This document shows positions 671 through 25,640 of a stretch of 33,778 nt of DNA, piece by piece. Each line of letters starts with the position of its first letter. The stretch's first letter is position 1. The DNA lies in the IMG/VR virus record IMGVR_UViG_3300048065_000738, positions 1-33,778 of that record. One strand, written 5' to 3'. The notes below the pieces were generated by a model, which searched no databases, was not told where the DNA came from, and saw nothing but the letters and a program-made list of their open reading frames with translations. The translations under genes and the position numbers were made by a program. This DNA comes from a virus.

Positions 671-2230
671 TTATTGCTCGCTTTGTGTTTCAATACCAAC
701 TTGTGCTTGGCGTTGAAGTTCTTCTTGTGGAAGAATATCCACTAAATTCCTTAAGTCAGTAGCCGTTTTGGGCATACCATAATCATCAAAATGTTGCATT
801 ACTTCTTCAATATCTTCTTGAGGCATGGAACGCTTGCGCATATATTCACTGGTCAACTTCTTGATGAGAGGTAGGGACATTGCGTGGTACTGCATTCCCT
901 CGGTAATGTCTTGGAATATCTCATCCGCACTAGACAAGTCGTAATGTTTCGAATAGGTTACACCGTATCCTTCGTAGTCCTCATCACGAACCTTAGCCAT
1001 TCTTCTAAGCACCTGCATCTCTATCATCTCCATGTCCATAGCGGTAGACGCTAGCAACCCTTGTTCCTCTACGTTATCGAACCTCTTAGCGGAGCCCGAT
1101 ACATTGCTCTTAACAATGGACTTGTCTCGAACCTGAGCCATAGAGAAGATGAGCGACATCAAATCACCAAAAATTACGTCTCTAAGGTGCTGAAGACCCT
1201 GCATATCTGCTTGATATAACATGTTACTAGGTATTTGCTGGTCATCAGGAATAATGATAGCCATACCCACACCCTCTTTGATGGTACGAGAGTCGTATTG
1301 ATCGTCATCAGCGACACCAGCTAGACTTCGAACAATGGAATCTGTGAGAACAGGAATAGGATGCCCGAACAGTTCAGAACCCTTCTTCAGGTCATAAAAC
1401 AACTCAGAAGAGGCTAGGTACATACCCTTAAGGGAATATCTACGAGGTTTACCTACAATGAACGAACTGTTAGCATCTGTCTGACCCTTGAGTAGCGTGG
1501 CTGGAACCTCTCCGAATGGATTAGGTATTTCCAGAGTCTTTTGTTTCTTCCCATTCTCTTCGATGTACACGCAGATGTACTCAGGTGTGTAGGCAGTCCA
1601 CTTATGCTTCTTAACGTTGTCTAGGTCATAATACATTTGCCTAGTAACAAGCAACGTGAGAGCGCCTTGCTTCACTTGAAAGTTCCATATTTCGTGGGGA
1701 CGCACAACAAAGTTATAAGGAACTACGTTGCCGTCTGTGTCGGTAACAGGGTTTCCGTTACCATCTATCATAAGATCGGTTACTACGGCACCGAATCCAA
1801 GAACCTCTTTCACGAAGAGAACCTTGTCTCGGTAAAACTCGGTGATAGAACACCCTGCATCATCAAAATTAGTTTCCTTCCACTTCCAGAAATCCTTGTT
1901 GTCAGGGTACATTCGGTTGACGTTGTTCTCGTCATAAATGCGCTGTTGTGCCGAGAAGAACTTCTGCTCCAGTGGGAACAACTTCATTCGACCTAAACGC
2001 TCTCTGTACTCTTCATCCGACTCAATGCTGCTCTGGTCAATGATATAGGACTTATCAGAAAAGACCGTGCTAGAAATGGCTGTGTACTCGTCATACTCCG
2101 CTTGAAACCAACTGTTCATGATTTTGGCTCGGTCAAGAACCACGCTATAATACGGGTGACGAGTTTCTTTCATTACGATGTCTTCGACAGCGTCTTTGGA
2201 TACGGAATATAACTTTGAGGTGTCTATCAT
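671..2230 (-). CDS. Phage portal protein
   Basis: This 519-residue protein has portal size and position, after the terminase genes and before the scaffold. The N-terminal part is mixed alpha/beta with a long charged helical stretch. The middle has a beta-rich wing-like segment with an Asp/Asn/Gly turn (about residues 160-175). The C-terminal third is helical with an acidic, Gln-rich tail. Portals form the dodecameric ring at the capsid vertex that docks the terminase and the tail. The start ATG overlaps the stop of the 39-aa gene by one base (TAATG), which implies translational coupling. The family is assigned from length, layout and neighbours rather than one motif. Confidence 0.85.
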   Translation of the reverse strand: MIDTSKLYSVSKDAVEDIVMKETRHPYYSVVLDRAKIMNSWFQAEYDEYTAISSTVFSDKSYIIDQSSIESDEEYRERLGRMKLFPLEQKFFSAQQRIYDENNVNRMYPDNKDFWKWKETNFDDAGCSITEFYRDKVLFVKEVLGFGAVVTDLMIDGNGNPVTDTDGNVVPYNFVVRPHEIWNFQVKQGALTLLVTRQMYYDLDNVKKHKWTAYTPEYICVYIEENGKKQKTLEIPNPFGEVPATLLKGQTDANSSFIVGKPRRYSLKGMYLASSELFYDLKKGSELFGHPIPVLTDSIVRSLAGVADDDQYDSRTIKEGVGMAIIIPDDQQIPSNMLYQADMQGLQHLRDVIFGDLMSLIFSMAQVRDKSIVKSNVSGSAKRFDNVEEQGLLASTAMDMEMIEMQVLRRMAKVRDEDYEGYGVTYSKHYDLSSADEIFQDITEGMQYHAMSLPLIKKLTSEYMRKRSMPQEDIEEVMQHFDDYGMPKTATDLRNLVDILPQEELQRQAQVGIETQSEQ

Positions 2231-3261: not shown

Positions 3262-3645
3262 ATGGCAAACACTCCAGCAAAACCAGCCCTATACAGCCGA
3301 GTTAAATCTGAGGCTAAACGTAAGTTCAAGATATTCCCTAGTGCGTATGCTTCTGCGTGGATAGTAAAGGAATACAAGAAAAGGGGTGGAACGTACAAAG
3401 GCAAAAAGTCAGGTACAACTGGTGTAGCCCGATGGATGAAAGAAAAGTGGAAGACCCAAGACGGACAGGCTTGTGGCTCTGCTAAATTTAAAGGAGTGAA
3501 GAAGTGTCGACCTACCGTTAAGGTTTCCTCTAAGACCCCAGTAACGTGGCAAGAACTGCGTAAGCGTGGCGAGGGTAAGAAAGCAGTACGTGAAAAGAGA
3601 CGGGTTGGTATGGGTAAACGAGCTAAATCTATAAAGAGAAGTTAG
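3262..3645 (+). CDS. DUF5872-like basic protein
   Basis: The 127-aa product carries the pattern PALYSRVKSEAKRKFKIFPS-AYASAW-IVKEYKKRGG, then a Trp-rich middle, a two-Cys segment (about residues 72-82) and VSSKTPVTW. This matches what I recall of the DUF5872 family in marine phages and giant viruses. It is strongly basic, ending in Lys/Arg-rich sequence. The function is unknown; DNA or virion association is plausible. It follows the nuclease-like gene by 29 nt and its stop overlaps the convergent terminase-nuclease stop by 4 nt, leaving no room for a terminator. Confidence 0.7.
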   Translation: MANTPAKPALYSRVKSEAKRKFKIFPSAYASAWIVKEYKKRGGTYKGKKSGTTGVARWMKEKWKTQDGQACGSAKFKGVKKCRPTVKVSSKTPVTWQELRKRGEGKKAVREKRRVGMGKRAKSIKRS

Positions 3646-4427
3646 CGGAGCACATACATAGGGGAGGCGGAGCCTCTCTCATTACGCCAGATAGCGTAAT
3701 CAGTAGCATCGGACATGTGACCCCTGTCGCCATTGTCGATTTTTAGCCCTTTATCATTAACGATGGAATACATATAGTCTTTTATGACGTGTTCGCAGCG
3801 TGTGTTTACAAGCAATCTACGCTCCCCATTGGTTCCAGCGTAAATTACGTTGTTTACCTTGTCTACACGCACCTTTCTCTTAGGATTTTGGATGTCTAGC
3901 TCGTTTTTATACAAAATATCGTTCTCCTCAAAGACTTCTCGCACGTAGTCCCAGTCATTTTTGCCTACACGACCATAATTGCCACTTTTTTGGTTGGAAG
4001 TGTTGTCTCCAGCTAATAAAACCTTTGAGATGCCCCATTTATTTAGTAATTCTACCGCTTTTAGGGCTTGCTCGGTGGTTAAAGCCTCTTTGGAGAAGAT
4101 TTCATCGAAAATAATATACTGCTTAAGCCCATTACGAGCTCTTTTAACTTGGAGAAGAGCCCAACAATGAGGAGACCTGTTGAAATCAGCACAAAGCCAG
4201 ACAGGATAGCCAGGATCGTAATCAAGAGCCGTAAGATTCCCATCAGGGTAGTGATTGTATCCGTCAAAGTGTTTATAAGCCTTTCTCGTTGGGTCATCTG
4301 TTTCCTCGCTCATTTCGTATCCAAGTTTATACGACAGAAAGTCCATCGCTTCCTCTTGGAGTAGCCGTTGTTTACTGTGATTAGTTTCCCATAAGGGAAT
4401 GTCCCAGATCTTATCCGGTTCTCTCAT
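3642..4427 (-). CDS. terL-C: Large terminase, nuclease half (separate gene)
   Basis: This 261-aa ORF has the RNase-H-like nuclease of large terminases. It shows an acidic residue after a hydrophobic strand (WLCADFN, D81), a second acidic pair (IIFDEIF, D108/E109), a third (LLAGDNT, D141) and a late HMSDATDYAIW (D240/D243). Residues 8-50 match the linker that normally joins ATPase and nuclease (PLWETNHSK, then a helix). The enzyme cuts concatemeric DNA during packaging. It lacks any ATPase motif, which is found in the separate gene at 4753-5565. Its ATG overlaps the stop of the resolvase-like gene by 4 nt (ATGA), so the three genes are probably translated together. Confidence 0.85.
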   Translation of the reverse strand: MREPDKIWDIPLWETNHSKQRLLQEEAMDFLSYKLGYEMSEETDDPTRKAYKHFDGYNHYPDGNLTALDYDPGYPVWLCADFNRSPHCWALLQVKRARNGLKQYIIFDEIFSKEALTTEQALKAVELLNKWGISKVLLAGDNTSNQKSGNYGRVGKNDWDYVREVFEENDILYKNELDIQNPKRKVRVDKVNNVIYAGTNGERRLLVNTRCEHVIKDYMYSIVNDKGLKIDNGDRGHMSDATDYAIWRNERGSASPMYVLR

Positions 4428-4771
4428 AACCTACTAAATAATGTTTGCATGACAGCACCGCTTTCAATAAAGTAGACAGGCACACCTGCATCGTCACCCT
4501 CCGCTATTAAGGACATTGCACCTGAATGGTGCTGGTGTAATGTTTTAAGGTCGTATGTCAGGATTGCCCATCCATTTTTTCCGCATTCTTTTATAATTTC
4601 GTGTATCGCCTTAGAGTTTTTGTGCTTGGCTAATATTTCCCACTTTTGACCGACAAGTTCAGCTTCTATCATATCCAGAAACTCATCCATCTTATTTTTT
4701 ATTTGATTTATTTCCTCTTGCTGTACCTTTAGCCCGAACCGAGCGTACATAACTACTTTAGGTTGTTCCAT
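4424..4771 (-). CDS. Serine-resolvase-fold protein with catalytic residues lost, lying between the terminase halves
   Basis: The 115-aa protein resembles the N-terminal domain of resolvase/invertase recombinases: VVMYARFG...QQ at the start, and GWAILTYDLKTL then DAGVPVYFIESG at the end, as in YARVS..QQ, VILVKKLDRL and GVSIRFIDDG of gamma-delta resolvase. The catalytic Ser position holds Gly (YARFG, G13), and the LDRLxR arginines are replaced (LKTLHQ). There is no C-terminal DNA-binding domain. It should therefore not recombine DNA. It overlaps the ATPase gene by 19 nt and the nuclease gene by 4 nt, so it is probably co-translated with both. A role as terminase bridge or third subunit is inference. 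The fold is assigned by eye only. Confidence 0.6.
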   Translation of the reverse strand: MEQPKVVMYARFGLKVQQEEINQIKNKMDEFLDMIEAELVGQKWEILAKHKNSKAIHEIIKECGKNGWAILTYDLKTLHQHHSGAMSLIAEGDDAGVPVYFIESGAVMQTLFSRL

Positions 4772-5565
4772 TCTTCCACCTTATATCCTGATTTATCTTC
4801 TTTTACCGAAATCTGAAGCACATTGAATATGCCCGACTTCATTAACCGACTATTAGCGTCATTAGGATGGTATGGTGTACACACGCTTAAAACAATACCT
4901 TTGTCGTGTACACGCTTAATCCAAGTGTTCGATACCTTATTCCAAACCGTTTCTCTACGAGCCGTAGATATACGATCTTCATCGTTGCACACATCATCAA
5001 GGATCAAAACACCAGCTCGTTGTCCCGTAGTTTGGGTTAGTACAGCATACGCTTCGTAGGTAGGATTACCAGTGCGGTTACGACTACTTACTATAATCCT
5101 TTGCGTAGACCCTGTATCGGTACGGTCAAACTCTACCGGATTAAAGTTGTGCTCCTTGCACCAGTACCGGTACATATCACTTTGAAACAAGGCTCTTAGA
5201 GACAATATTCTTTTCGTGGAGATGCCACCGTCTGCCGATACTATTAGGGTTTCTAGCTCGTGCTTACGTGTGGTCATGTATGCAGACAGACCAATGGGAA
5301 CTTGTTGGGACTTTCCCGTGTTGTAGGGCGCTCTAATCAATCCATTGAGACGAGCGTTCTTGGATAGCGCCTGTTGCTCCCAGTCATAGATGCCTTGCTG
5401 CATCGTGTGATGAATCTGAGCTTGGGTTACCTTAAACCCATCTTGATCAGCTAAACAGTTTTCGATAAAAGAATTACGTAGGTCTAGCGAGTCAGGGGGT
5501 GGCTCGTGTCCTACGACATTGACTAATAAGTCTGACCAGTTATTCTTTTTCGGTTTTTGGCTCAT
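4753..5565 (-). CDS. terL-N: Large terminase, ATPase half (separate gene)
   Basis: From ATG 5565 the product is 270 aa (start MSQKPKKNN). It holds a Walker A variant RAPYNTGKS (78-86), Walker B VLILDDV (186-192) and a coupling motif SVCTPYHPND (227-236), so it is the packaging motor. It stops right after the ATPase fold (...VEEWNNLK), where an intact large terminase would continue into the nuclease; that half is a separate ORF. Complete terminases are usually 420-600 aa, and this plus the 261-aa nuclease totals 531. An upstream in-frame start at 5625 would overlap the Zn-finger gene by 86 nt rather than 26, so 5565 is preferred. Confidence 0.85.
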   Translation of the reverse strand: MSQKPKKNNWSDLLVNVVGHEPPPDSLDLRNSFIENCLADQDGFKVTQAQIHHTMQQGIYDWEQQALSKNARLNGLIRAPYNTGKSQQVPIGLSAYMTTRKHELETLIVSADGGISTKRILSLRALFQSDMYRYWCKEHNFNPVEFDRTDTGSTQRIIVSSRNRTGNPTYEAYAVLTQTTGQRAGVLILDDVCNDEDRISTARRETVWNKVSNTWIKRVHDKGIVLSVCTPYHPNDANSRLMKSGIFNVLQISVKEDKSGYKVEEWNNLK

Positions 5566-5737
5566 AGGCTCGTTTGCATATGGGGCACTGCACCTCGCAC
5601 CGCTTATCAGTAGATACTTCACCAAGACACTTAAATATGCGTGCTTTGTTTTTTAGGGGTACGGGCTTAGGTATAAAGTTTTCTTTCATTTCAGGAAATA
5701 TGTAGCGTTTAATGTTATTTGAGCTTGAGCCGTTCAT
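5540..5737 (-). CDS. 65-aa Cys-containing, probable zinc-finger protein
   Basis: The protein is basic and has a C-terminal Cys group: KCLG at about residue 37, one more Cys near 48, then CPIC. The CPIC knuckle suggests a small zinc-binding fold. It overlaps both neighbours (23 nt with the coiled-coil gene, 26 nt with the terminase ATPase gene), so it belongs to the packaging operon. Its function is not recognised. An HNH nuclease would also need His/Asn motifs, which are not visible. Confidence 0.6.
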   Translation of the reverse strand: MNGSSSNNIKRYIFPEMKENFIPKPVPLKNKARIFKCLGEVSTDKRCEVQCPICKRAYEPKTEKE

Positions 5738-7847: not shown

Positions 7848-8567
7848 TTATACCGTTGTTTTTTGTGTTGTGTGTTGTGGCGCTTGCTTCTTTCGTACCT
7901 GCTCCCATATAACCGCTTGGAATTCGTACGGCTTCAATCCGACGGAAGCGGCTGCGGTTTTGGTTGCTTCTGTTATATCTGCGTATCTTGCAGCGGTTAA
8001 ACTTTTAATGCGCTTCGGATCTTTGAAAAATGCGCTTAGGTGGTGGCGGTCGATCGTTACAAAATCGGCGGCGGTTTCTCCCTGGTTTATGTTTTGAAAA
8101 AAGGCGTATGTTTTTAGGGCGGTTTCTCTATTGATCCCAGGGCGTGCGGTTCGTGGCTTTCCGGTCTTGCCGGTATACTCTCCATTCTTTATTTCCCGGG
8201 GTTTATATGTTACCGGCTTATCTTTTAGCGTTGCGATCGCTTTGTACTTGTTCCCGTCATATGTTGAAACGATCACTTTTGCCGGATTGCTTCCGGTGTT
8301 GTGCGCTGCAATTATAGCGGCGGCTTGCTGTTTGTTTAGCTCCCACTCGACCGACGGGCTCAAAATACTAATTATTTTTGCGGCGGTTTCTGTGGTGGTG
8401 TTGTGCTCTATTGCAAGTGCTGCGGCGTATTTGTGAGCGTCCGAATACCATTTAATACCGGCGGCTTTTTCTTCCGGGGTTGCTTGGTTGTATAGTTTTA
8501 TCATTCTATTGATACCGGTTCTTATATAGTACCGGTTTAACGATCTGTATTTTTTAGCTGTTTTCAT
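7848..8567 (-). CDS. Phage protein resembling the DUF7178 / HhH-GPD glycosylase layout
   Basis: In the 239-aa protein the order IISILSPSVEWELNK (about 65-80), ETALKTYAFFQNI (about 147-160), DFVTIDRHHLSAFF (about 167-180) and YEFQAVIWEQVRK (about 213-225) matches what I recall of a phage family annotated DUF7178. Its helical pattern and TIDRHH segment recall DNA-glycosylase-like folds. Enzymatic activity is not shown; a role in DNA modification or counter-defence would be speculation. It overlaps the upstream Zn-ribbon gene by 14 nt. The gene is rich in CCGG compared with the structural genes. Confidence 0.5.
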   Translation of the reverse strand: MKTAKKYRSLNRYYIRTGINRMIKLYNQATPEEKAAGIKWYSDAHKYAAALAIEHNTTTETAAKIISILSPSVEWELNKQQAAAIIAAHNTGSNPAKVIVSTYDGNKYKAIATLKDKPVTYKPREIKNGEYTGKTGKPRTARPGINRETALKTYAFFQNINQGETAADFVTIDRHHLSAFFKDPKRIKSLTAARYADITEATKTAAASVGLKPYEFQAVIWEQVRKKQAPQHTTQKTTV

Positions 8568-22094: not shown

Positions 22095-25000
22095 TTAGGT
22101 TATTAATGAATAATCTATATAAGTGTTTCCGTTACTCAATATAAGGGAATCGCTTAATCTTGTAAATACGCCACTTGGATTTAACTCTGTGACAGGATTA
22201 TAATCTCTTGTTCCTATGTCAGTAGCCGAAGCTCCACTTAATGTTACCCCAGAAGAATCTAAGACATTAAAGCGTATGTGTGTAGTCGTATCTTTTTCGT
22301 TCACGTAAAAATACATAGTAATTGTTCCAGTGCAAGAACCAGTTTGGCTAGAGGTAAATTTAAATTCAGTTTTTGTACTATCAGATTGGTCTACAACATT
22401 AAGTCTGTTTCCAGTTGCGTTATCTGCAACAAAATAATTCGTGTTAAAATCTATCCTAGTATCTGAAAACAACCCATAATCAGTAAAAGTAGAATTATTC
22501 GTACTAACCTCAAGTGTTACGGTAATACCAGCAGTAAAAGAACCAGCAGGAACACTTTGAGAGTAATCAAATTGAAACTTAACCCATCTATTATTATTTA
22601 TAGCTAATGAGTTTGTGTTAAAACCGTTTGCTAATGTGGCAAGTCTAAAATCAGATACATCTGACGTGGTAACTTCTGTATTAGCACTATCTGATGGATA
22701 CGTAGTTCCTGTTGATTTAATTCTAAGGTTACCAGACGTTAAATCAAATACTTCTGATTTAATTTCAAACGTACCTGCATTCTCATTAAATGATAAGAAG
22801 TTAGTACCATCGCCTACCTTAAACTGTACATCACCCTGACCTAGTTTCCAGTAGTTTTGATTGGTTATTCCACCAGAATCTATTTTTATGCCTTGCTCTA
22901 CACTACTTAACTTACCGACAGTCATTAATGCCGAACCCGTACCAATGACTATGTTTTGGTTATCAGTATTTACATTGAAATTAGTAGTAGTAATCAGAAC
23001 GGTATCACTATCACCAGATAATACGCCACCACCAAAAGAGAATGTCTTGTCCTGTTTAAAGAAGTCGTTAGCACCTATCGTAATACCGTCTGTGCTATCT
23101 ATAGTCATTGACCCAGCAGTAAGGTCAAAGGTACTAGCATTTATAGTAAAATTAGTTCCATCAAACTCTAAGAAGTTAGTAGCGTCACCAACCCTAAGCA
23201 CATTACCTGATTCAAGGTCACCATCACTAATACCAAAGTAATTATTGGCATTTATAAAGAATCCGTAAAAGTCTCCGTTACTAACACCGCCCTGAGATGC
23301 TTGTACGTTTATGTCTATATTCTCAAGTTTACCTACGATAGCCTCGTTACTTCCATCTGTAGCTTTTAACTTACCAGTAACTTCTATTTCTTGGGCAAAT
23401 AAATTGGATACATTTATCTCTGTAGCGGTAATAGAGTCGGTAACAATAGTACCACCATCTATAAAGGTTGCTTCGCCTAAATTAGTAGGTGTAGTAGAAC
23501 CGTCTTTAGCGCTCTTAAATATGGTTGTACCTGTAATATCAATATCACCTTTTACGGTAAGAGTACTACCGCTGAACTCCATGTATTGACCACTCCTAGT
23601 AAGGTCTCCCACCAATAAAGCGCCAGTAAGAAACGTGTTTTCGCCAAAGAAGCCAAACCCACTTACGTTAGAATACGTGCTAGTTAAATTAGCAAGGTTA
23701 CCGCTTTGTGTGATTACCGTTATAACCGTATCAGGGTCTCCTGCTCTTGGCGAACCACTTACTGTGTTAGTCCATTGCACGATTCTGTTGTAAGGAACCT
23801 TAGTAAAATCATCGGAAGATTCAGTGCTTCTGTCTAATACAGTTCTTTCAATGTAGTAACTACCTGACGTTCCGTAATCTAAAAGAATATTACCTTTGTT
23901 TACTGTTTTCCCTACAGCTCCATTTGATGCGCCTGCATACGTTATGGTATAATCCCAAGTTTGTGTACCACCTGCTACACTAGCGTAGTTCGATACGGTT
24001 CCGTATATATCAAATATTTCGAGTCCACTAGTTGAATCAACGACTCTAGCCCTTACATGGTCACCAGCCTCAAACACCTGTAACCCACTTAATCCTTCTA
24101 GGTCTTCCACTGTGATGCTTACAGATGCTCCTACACTAGGAACTACGAATGATGCGTTTAACTTAGCAACTGACTTCGTTAGTATGTCAGATCCTGCTAA
24201 TGCTTGTGCTACATCTGCCGTAAATGCCTTAGCTACTAACTCATCTATATACAATGTTCTAAAGTCACCAACACCTGCCTGAGATATTTGGAAGCCACTT
24301 GGTGTAGTAGTAAACCAAGAACTAAAATCAGCTGTTTCTATATCGTCATTAACGGTTATCGTTCCATCCACCTGTAGTGTTGAGCTAAGGATTGTAGCCC
24401 CACTTACTGTTAGCGCCCCAAACGTTACACTGTCGCTAGTTTGAACGTTTTGGTTCATTGCATACAGCTCATTGTCGCCTTGACCAGTGTTTAATGTAGG
24501 AGCGTCTAATGTGCCTGAAATGGTGGTGTTACCAGTTACTGAAAGAGTACCACCTATCGTTGCGTTTGTGCCTACTTCTAAATAGGTGTCTGCTTTTAGA
24601 TATGTTCCTGCGTGAACGTGTTGGTCTGCATTGATACCGTTATCAACGTCTAAACTCGTTCCAATAAATACTGGGTTATTAAACTTCTCACTAGGGTCAG
24701 CATCCCATTCTAGCGTGCTTGTGTTCCACGTAATACTGGTCGTATCTATTTCATCGGTGATGACTATACCATTAACAGTTAGGTCATCGTTTATAGTTAC
24801 AAGACCACTAGCTATATTAACATCAATTACATCAGTTGTTACTGCTTGGTTGTTAGCATCACCTGCGAATATTTTTCCTTCGTCTAGGTTAGGTACGGCA
24901 TTGGTACGACCTGCACCCATGATGTAAATTTGTCCACTACTACCATCGACTCGTATAACCTTAGCGATTTTCTGAAGTAGGTTGCTTTCACCAGTTGGTG

Positions 25001-25640
25001 GTGTATTTACAAGCGTACCATTAGGACCAATAAACAATTCATCGCCTACTGTAAAAGAACTTGTATCTATCCCTATTAACTTACCATGAGTAACTATATC
25101 ACCCATAGCATTATCATTCACATCAGCCGATAAAACCCCAATCGAAGGCATTGTGCCACTACCATCAGAATCAGCTACACCTATCGTGAACTGCTGACCT
25201 TGAGCAACTTGTCCTGATATGTAGACTGGTGTGCCTTTTGTTAATGTGCCACCTGTATCATTCTTTCCTTGTACGTGAATAGCACCAGTAAGGTCGCCTG
25301 TTACGTCCCCTGTAACGTTACCAGTAACATCTCCAATTAGGTCAGCTGTTACCGTATTAAACGTTACATCATCACTAGCACCAAGTTCTAGGTTGTCTCT
25401 GGCGGTGGATACGTTATCAAGGTCGGATAGATTATTGCTTTCAAGTAGGTATCTAGCATCAGGTACAGTAAATATAGCATTACTAAAGTCTTCACGAAGC
25501 AATGGAAACCCAGCTTGAGTAGCACCGTCATGAACGACTACGGTATCTTTGGTTAAGTCTACCGTAAGTTCTGCTACAGCGCCAGTAAAGGAGGCGTGTT
25601 CTGATGTTGTACCCCGTCTGCGTTTTACTTCGGTTGCCAT
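22095..25640 (-). CDS. Large tail fibre / tip protein
   Basis: The 1181-aa protein starts with a segment common at the N-termini of phage fibres (KRRRGTTSEHASFTGAVAEL, KDTVVVHDG), then a beta-rich module (GTLTKGTPVYISGQVAQGQQ) and a long middle of strand repeats (GxLTVSGNTTISG types). About residues 750-780 read SITATEINVSNLFAQEIEVT, as in tip proteins (J-like) of tailed phages. Two copies of a GDxxxxxVGDxTNFLxF...FDLTxGxxxI module lie near 800-1000. It is probably the main receptor-binding or central fibre. The role is by type and place. Confidence 0.75.
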   Translation of the reverse strand: MATEVKRRRGTTSEHASFTGAVAELTVDLTKDTVVVHDGATQAGFPLLREDFSNAIFTVPDARYLLESNNLSDLDNVSTARDNLELGASDDVTFNTVTADLIGDVTGNVTGDVTGDLTGAIHVQGKNDTGGTLTKGTPVYISGQVAQGQQFTIGVADSDGSGTMPSIGVLSADVNDNAMGDIVTHGKLIGIDTSSFTVGDELFIGPNGTLVNTPPTGESNLLQKIAKVIRVDGSSGQIYIMGAGRTNAVPNLDEGKIFAGDANNQAVTTDVIDVNIASGLVTINDDLTVNGIVITDEIDTTSITWNTSTLEWDADPSEKFNNPVFIGTSLDVDNGINADQHVHAGTYLKADTYLEVGTNATIGGTLSVTGNTTISGTLDAPTLNTGQGDNELYAMNQNVQTSDSVTFGALTVSGATILSSTLQVDGTITVNDDIETADFSSWFTTTPSGFQISQAGVGDFRTLYIDELVAKAFTADVAQALAGSDILTKSVAKLNASFVVPSVGASVSITVEDLEGLSGLQVFEAGDHVRARVVDSTSGLEIFDIYGTVSNYASVAGGTQTWDYTITYAGASNGAVGKTVNKGNILLDYGTSGSYYIERTVLDRSTESSDDFTKVPYNRIVQWTNTVSGSPRAGDPDTVITVITQSGNLANLTSTYSNVSGFGFFGENTFLTGALLVGDLTRSGQYMEFSGSTLTVKGDIDITGTTIFKSAKDGSTTPTNLGEATFIDGGTIVTDSITATEINVSNLFAQEIEVTGKLKATDGSNEAIVGKLENIDINVQASQGGVSNGDFYGFFINANNYFGISDGDLESGNVLRVGDATNFLEFDGTNFTINASTFDLTAGSMTIDSTDGITIGANDFFKQDKTFSFGGGVLSGDSDTVLITTTNFNVNTDNQNIVIGTGSALMTVGKLSSVEQGIKIDSGGITNQNYWKLGQGDVQFKVGDGTNFLSFNENAGTFEIKSEVFDLTSGNLRIKSTGTTYPSDSANTEVTTSDVSDFRLATLANGFNTNSLAINNNRWVKFQFDYSQSVPAGSFTAGITVTLEVSTNNSTFTDYGLFSDTRIDFNTNYFVADNATGNRLNVVDQSDSTKTEFKFTSSQTGSCTGTITMYFYVNEKDTTTHIRFNVLDSSGVTLSGASATDIGTRDYNPVTELNPSGVFTRLSDSLILSNGNTYIDYSLIT

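Follow-up and report, generated by a model that had tools for sequence, protein, structure and literature searches.

We describe a family of uncultured, mostly marine phages in which the gene for the large terminase (terL) is permanently split, so that the ATPase half and the nuclease half of TerL are encoded by separate genes. The sequence analysed here, hereafter the window, is the whole 33,778 bp of the uncultured virus record IMGVR_UViG_3300048065_000738, in which the division of TerL into an ATPase gene, a 115-aa ORF (the middle gene) and a nuclease gene is confirmed as real. TerL in these phages would probably act as two chains with no covalent link, with the overlapping genes at the break forming a cassette that couples translation of the nuclease half.

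Split terL Genes in the Packaging Module

The packaging module of the window is formed by a TerS-like HTH protein, the ATPase half, the middle ORF, the nuclease half and the portal protein, all encoded on the minus strand (Table 1). As the earlier note described, the three ORFs of the split lie in different frames and overlap (by 19 and 4 nt), and the ATPase half, which carries Walker A ('RAPYNTGKSQQ'), Walker B ('VLILDD') and coupling ('VCTPYHPNDAN') motifs, ends soon after the motor, ~32 aa past the coupling motif; an alternative, longer reading of this half starts from TTG at 5625. The ATPase half matches the PHROG terL families phrog_38 (E = 7.9e-21) and phrog_4758 (E = 3.6e-15), and its ASCE ATPase motifs are invariant or nearly so in relatives.

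The nuclease half was said to begin with the linker; its N-terminus reads 'MREPDKIWDIPLWETNHS', and its 'PLW' segment indeed corresponds in the alignment to 'LWP', which intact TerLs carry after their ATPase core. It matches phrog_10250 (terL; E = 3e-7) and a profile of intact TerLs (hhalign, probability 98.6, E = 1e-15), and residues D81, D141 and D240/D243 are invariant. The AF2 model of this half is of low confidence (pLDDT 42), and its RNase H-like assignment is based on the sequence profile and the acidic residues. Neither the ATPase profile nor the nuclease profile found a match among solved structures. Together the halves comprise 531 aa, vs 534 aa for the intact GP100 TerL.

Upstream of the packaging module, the window encodes a DUF7178 protein (7848-8567; E = 1.7e-28; phrog_3842). 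Elsewhere, it encodes a 114-aa phage protein (17583-17927) matching the DnaA C-terminal DNA-binding domain (E = 7.7e-14) and, on the minus strand, a 1181-aa protein with an Mtd_N (major tropism determinant N-terminal) domain (22095-25640).

Table 1. Features of the packaging module in the window, and of the junction between the TerL halves in related loci (L-numbers).
Feature	Position	Strand	Remarks
Probable small terminase, TerS-like HTH, 184 aa	6521..7075	(-)	Upstream, same direction; weak matches to phrog_4044 and phrog_2538 (E = 5e-4 and 9e-4)
TerL ATPase half, 270 aa	4753..5565	(-)	ATG at 5565; phrog_38; Walker A, Walker B, coupling motif
Shine-Dalgarno-like AAGGTGG of middle gene	4776..4782	(-)	Inside ATPase gene
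Overlap of ATPase 3' end and middle-gene start, 19 nt	4753..4771	(-)	ATG within conserved Glu-Trp codons (GAATGG)
Middle gene, 115 aa	4424..4771	(-)	Resolvase N-domain-like; predicted inactive as recombinase
ATGA overlap of middle-gene stop and nuclease start, 4 nt	4424..4427	(-)	
TerL nuclease half, 261 aa	3642..4427	(-)	Linker/'PLW' segment first; acidic motifs CADFN, GDNTSN, HMSDATDY
Portal protein	671..2230	(-)	Downstream; phrog_145, E = 1.1e-17
GIY-YIG (T5orf172/MUG113) gene at ATPase/middle-gene overlap	L048:5814-6305; L024:5803-6221		In ~20 other junctions
~260-aa gene between TerL halves	L253:2438-3287; L254:440-1220; L263:1-125		phrog_8198-like in L254

Recurrence and Selection Across Relatives

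A scan of viral contigs gave 80 loci with an ATPase half at 87-100% identity; with duplicates removed and distant relatives found later added, these make up 76 distinct junctions. The ATPase and nuclease halves are separate ORFs in all 76 rather than one polypeptide, and the order ATPase-middle-nuclease, whose conservation the earlier note had proposed to check, is kept wherever the contig is long enough. The commonest form across the relatives has a first overlap of 19 nt and a second, ATGA overlap of 4 nt, and the break falls at the same residue even in relatives with halves only 55-62% identical. Since this order and these overlaps recur in dozens of independent contigs, the split is not a sequencing error, a chance event or a frameshift artefact. 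No gene is broken in 69 distinct complete loci, and there is thus no sign of the indel or decay against which the earlier note had cautioned.

The junction holds the middle gene only in 48 of the 76 cases, and the middle gene together with a GIY-YIG gene in 22; the other six have no middle gene detectable by tblastn. One of these six, L236, has a shortened and strongly diverged middle gene by profile (E = 3.5e-8). In the marine clade, the middle family is present in 70/70 fully covered junctions.

Both halves are under strong purifying selection, and the middle gene is under clear but weaker selection and evolves much faster: across the 69 distinct complete loci, the medians of pairwise dN/dS are 0.028 for the ATPase half, 0.066 for the nuclease half and 0.225 for the middle gene (maximum 0.59). 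Mean column identity is 94% for the ATPase half (11 relatives) and likewise 94% for the nearly invariant nuclease half. Middle proteins only 40-60% identical occur together with near-invariant halves; in L004, the halves are ~98% identical to those of the window, and the middle protein only 60%.

Gene trees of the ATPase, middle and nuclease genes strongly reject one another, and in a control the trees of two halves within the ATPase gene disagree too, which indicates that recombination is pervasive in this phage group. Recombination of the middle gene was therefore dropped as proof of its mobility. The same control bears on a different view of the split, in which the ATPase half would translocate DNA alone and the nuclease half would be a separate genome-cutting enzyme outside the motor. 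Motors of the Phi29 type run with an ATPase that lacks an active nuclease, and both the independence of the two chains and the disagreement of segment trees could be read in this way; however, conflict inside the ATPase gene means that the trees are no evidence for independence, and the nuclease half retains the linker segment and its near-invariance, as expected of a motor part. We regard such a division of labor as unlikely.

A Resolvase-Like Protein, Predicted Inactive, at the Break

The earlier note took the middle ORF for a serine-resolvase N-terminal domain with its catalytic Ser replaced by Gly and the LDRLxR arginines lost, and the wider family bears this out. The window copy itself is weakly resolvase-like, below the cut-off for Pfam Resolvase (E = 0.036); the L044 member passes that cut-off (E = 1.3e-5, 25.7 bits vs 23.3), and 16 of the 22 aligned members of the family match at E <= 0.1. 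The AF2 model of the middle protein (pLDDT 78) has an alternating beta-alpha fold, and its best Foldseek matches in the PDB include the serine recombinase catalytic domains 3g13, 6dgc, 3guv and 3bvp (probability 1.00, query-normalised TM 0.58-0.67, E = 1.7e-3 to 5e-3, none below 1e-3). Among solved structures, the middle profile gave a marginal match only, to TP901-1 integrase (E = 0.74). Based on the L044 sequence match together with the predicted fold, we assign the middle ORF to the resolvase-like N-terminal domains.

The position of the catalytic Ser (residue 13) is Gly in the window and is occupied by Gly, Ser, Thr or Asn in 24, 21, 21 and 3 sequences, respectively, and the arginine positions of LDRLxR are hydrophobic in 69/69 (L/M/I and L/V/I). 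The match to the catalytic domain covers all 115 aa, which leaves no DNA-binding domain, either C-terminal or N-terminal as in IS607. From these substitutions, the middle protein is predicted to be inactive as a recombinase. What the family shares with serine recombinase catalytic domains (3g13, 3guv, TP901-1 integrase 3bvp and IS607 TnpA 6dgc) is the predicted fold, the Pfam Resolvase similarity of its members, a conserved 'YxR' and Gln and, in most members, the Asp of LDRLxR; unlike serine recombinases, it has no conserved Ser, LDRLxR arginines or DNA-binding domain in its 115 aa, and has acquired new invariant residues (W44-E45, S53, C63, Y73, H79). In total, 13 residues are invariant in the 22 aligned members, including W44-E45, S53, Y73 and H79; the invariant positions comprise Y9, Q18, W44, E45, S53, C63, Y73, H79, G84 and F101. 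As this invariant set is not that of a recombinase, the middle protein probably has another conserved function.

Homologues of the middle gene were absent from 50,697 phage records (tblastn), none was confirmed in a species-genome collection by pattern search, and no locus away from TerL was found. Being found nowhere besides the TerL junction, the middle gene does not behave as a mobile element. This argues against regarding it as a selfish passenger, that is, a degenerate remnant of a serine-recombinase-type mobile gene that is safe inside an essential gene and useless to the phage. Its fast evolution, its loss of recombinase residues and the company of a homing-type GIY-YIG gene in the same junction would fit a passenger; yet no decayed copy was seen among the 69 distinct complete loci, and dN/dS has a median of 0.225 and a maximum of 0.59 (see section "Recurrence and Selection Across Relatives"), and we consider a purely selfish role for the gene unlikely.

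The Junction as an Insertion Hotspot

In 22 of the 76 junctions, an extra ORF of 380-510 nt lies between the ATPase gene and the middle gene. It encodes a GIY-YIG protein (MUG113, E = 7.5e-15; T5orf172, E = 1.7e-10) with a variable N-terminal part, consisting of zinc-finger-like CxxC...CxxC pairs in most cases and of another segment in L048. The GIY-YIG gene is not in the window's own junction, and its presence varies between close relatives. L044 (without the gene) and L048 (with it) form an empty/occupied pair: the insert of ~515 nt lies exactly at the ATPase/middle overlap between flanks that run on unbroken (91% and 98% identity), with the ATPase tail encoded anew so that both neighboring genes are intact. 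A homing-endonuclease-type gene thus occupies the break of an essential gene, with occupied and empty sites in close relatives, as in known genes in pieces. The earlier note had set homing endonucleases aside as not the case here, which the 22 junctions and the clean L044/L048 insertion contradict. The recurrence of this T5orf172 GIY-YIG gene marks the TerL junction as an insertion hotspot.

A sister clade (L231, L252, L253, L254 and L255) has the identical split with no resolvase-like gene, and encodes unrelated ORFs of 60-80 aa instead; in L252-L255, the small ORF starts within the same Glu-Trp codons as the middle gene. In L253, L254 and L263, there is an additional ~260-aa gene between the halves, possibly for a virion protein, followed by a basic 50-60-aa ORF. 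The upstream ORF runs into the nuclease start codon in L231, L253, L255 and L263, and none of the lineages seen lacks a small ORF in the junction.

These junctions bear on the proposal of the earlier note that an ancient insertion had been turned into the structural bridge of a three-chain motor. An old and stable three-gene arrangement is upheld; the bridge is not. As a bridge, the inactivated resolvase domain (in the sister clade, the unrelated small protein) would replace the covalent linker as a structural or regulatory subunit that ties the ATPase to the nuclease. T4 gp17 cut at the linker retains its ATPase and nuclease activities but loses translocation (PMC3012670), and a replacement tie could therefore be needed; the intact state of the middle gene under purifying selection, its presence in 70/70 marine-clade junctions, its 13 invariant residues (W44-E45, S53, Y73 and H79 among them) and the small ORF in every lineage are in keeping with such a role. 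Set against this, the sister clade keeps the split with small proteins unrelated to resolvases, a finding that the earlier note itself had named as speaking against its reading. The shortened, strongly diverged version in L236 also argues against a bridge, and the 60% identity of the L004 middle protein, between halves at 98%, would be unexpected for contacts with two near-invariant partners. We therefore think it unlikely that the resident serves as a bridge.

Translation Signals and the Possibility of Rejoining

The middle gene has a Shine-Dalgarno-like sequence in the window (-8.2 kcal/mol), and the mean over 51 loci is -4.95 kcal/mol vs -2.42 for random 20-mers. At the nuclease start, the mean over 69 loci is -1.19 kcal/mol (weak or no Shine-Dalgarno sequence in most relatives), with the window a partial exception (moderate, -4.5 kcal/mol). 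Nuclease starts that mostly have no Shine-Dalgarno sequence and that overlap the stop of the gene upstream fit translational coupling, and we infer that synthesis of the nuclease half is coupled to that of the preceding small gene. Tight ATGA overlaps are common in phages, and this, together with the score of the window's own nuclease start, keeps coupling at the level of a probable mechanism.

Alternatively, RNA splicing or programmed frameshifting could restore a single chain, joining the ATPase and nuclease halves with or without the middle protein. Terminase introns are known in other phages (ICP1, PMC10448857; Bastillevirinae), and one -1 shift at each overlap could join the frames in most loci. 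However, Rfam models, those of introns included, match nothing in 3.5 kb of the window or in L024, L048, L231 and L253, and the insert is fully coding with overlapping ends, which led us to reject a group I or II intron in terL. An intein was rejected because the three frames differ, with stop codons between them. Frameshift joining was rejected because the frame relation between the middle and nuclease genes differs among loci (-4 vs -14 or -17 nt); inspection by eye revealed no obvious slippery heptamer in the overlap. Hundreds of nt, with intervening stops, separate the halves in L231, L253 and L254. We consider restoration of one chain very unlikely.

A Two-Chain Terminase With Exchangeable Residents

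We favor an explanation in which TerL was originally a single chain and underwent, long ago, one break at the ATPase-nuclease linker; the ATPase and nuclease chains would now reassemble non-covalently into the packaging motor. The break would have given overlapping small genes a permanent place to land: its resident in the window's clade is a 115-aa protein, probably derived from a resolvase and predicted inactive in recombination; the sister clade has an unrelated protein of 60-80 aa there, with or without a virion-like gene, and the T5orf172 GIY-YIG homing-type nuclease gene comes and goes. The resident would be an independently folding accessory protein, and its translation, running from inside the ATPase gene to the nuclease start codon, would couple production of the nuclease half to ATPase synthesis. 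We prefer this two-chain motor, with its coupled accessory gene, over a bridge given the stability of the separate chains, the Shine-Dalgarno pattern, and a middle protein that is diverged and replaceable. Two-chain function with no bridge is not a given, as shown by the loss of translocation in cut T4 gp17 (PMC3012670), and the 70/70 presence of the middle family exceeds what a neutral passenger would need, which counts against the explanation we favor.

The ATPase-nuclease linker is central to the proposed force-transmission model. Since the T4 motor loses translocation when cut there (PMC3012670), this phage group constitutes a natural test of the need for a covalent link, and the split bears on what replaces the linker and on how the stoichiometry of the two motor chains is set. 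It also shows that a core packaging gene can be a stable hotspot at which overlapping genes, an inactivated resolvase among them, are inserted and exchanged.

Origin and Comparison With Known Systems

For the ATPase half, the nearest annotated phage TerLs are those of Zobellviridae GP100 and Vibrio phage 521E56-1; for the nuclease half, they are those of pelagiphage HTVC111P, cyanophage MED4-117 and Flavobacterium phages. All are single chains (~24-29% identical), and the split is therefore derived and older than the divergence of the clades described here. No closer intact TerL was found, with the founding insertion itself not observed, and so the intact, insert-free close relative that the earlier note had raised as a counter-case did not appear. 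The TerLs of GP100, HTVC111P and MED4-117 share with the split halves the domain order and homology in the ATPase and/or nuclease domain, but are one chain each. Two terL families are of half length: phrog_4758 (243 aa) matches the ATPase half, and phrog_10250 (228 aa) the nuclease half. As a lead, these lengths hint that TerL is split in other sequenced phages too.

Precedents exist both for split core genes and for homing nucleases close to terminases. Insertion of homing endonucleases has divided nrdA and topoisomerase genes in phages, gene 43 is likewise known in split form, and the split NrdA and gene 43 products function as two chains (PMC2988022). For T5orf172 genes, 35% of neighborhoods include a terminase gene (PMC10448857). 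The nrdA and topoisomerase cases, together with this tendency of T5orf172 toward terminase genes, suggest by analogy that a homing-endonuclease insertion may have caused the TerL split. In the open-licence literature searched, we found no description of a TerL whose ATPase and nuclease are encoded by separate genes that splicing does not rejoin, nor of one with a permanent division at the linker and a resolvase-like, inactivated resident.

In ICP1, the same nuclease family (T5orf172/MUG113) is found at the terminase gene, but the terL pieces are spliced together (PMC10448857), whereas here there is no detectable intron and the pieces stay separate. Other close parallels are Aeh1 nrdA/mobE, T4 topoisomerase/mobA and Aeromonas phage 25 gene 43, in which an essential gene is in two ORFs with cooperating products (PMC2988022). 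As in these genes in pieces, the TerL junction combines overlapping ORFs with a mobile endonuclease gene in or near the break, and some T4 endonuclease genes overlap the upstream gene by 11-24 nt (PMC2988022), much as at the junctions described here. Unlike the nrdA, topoisomerase and gene 43 cases, the target is TerL, the break is at the ATPase-nuclease linker and the split is fixed across relatives down to ~55% identity; and, unlike at nrdA and topoisomerase, the resident of the TerL junction is usually a resolvase-like or unrelated small protein rather than an endonuclease.
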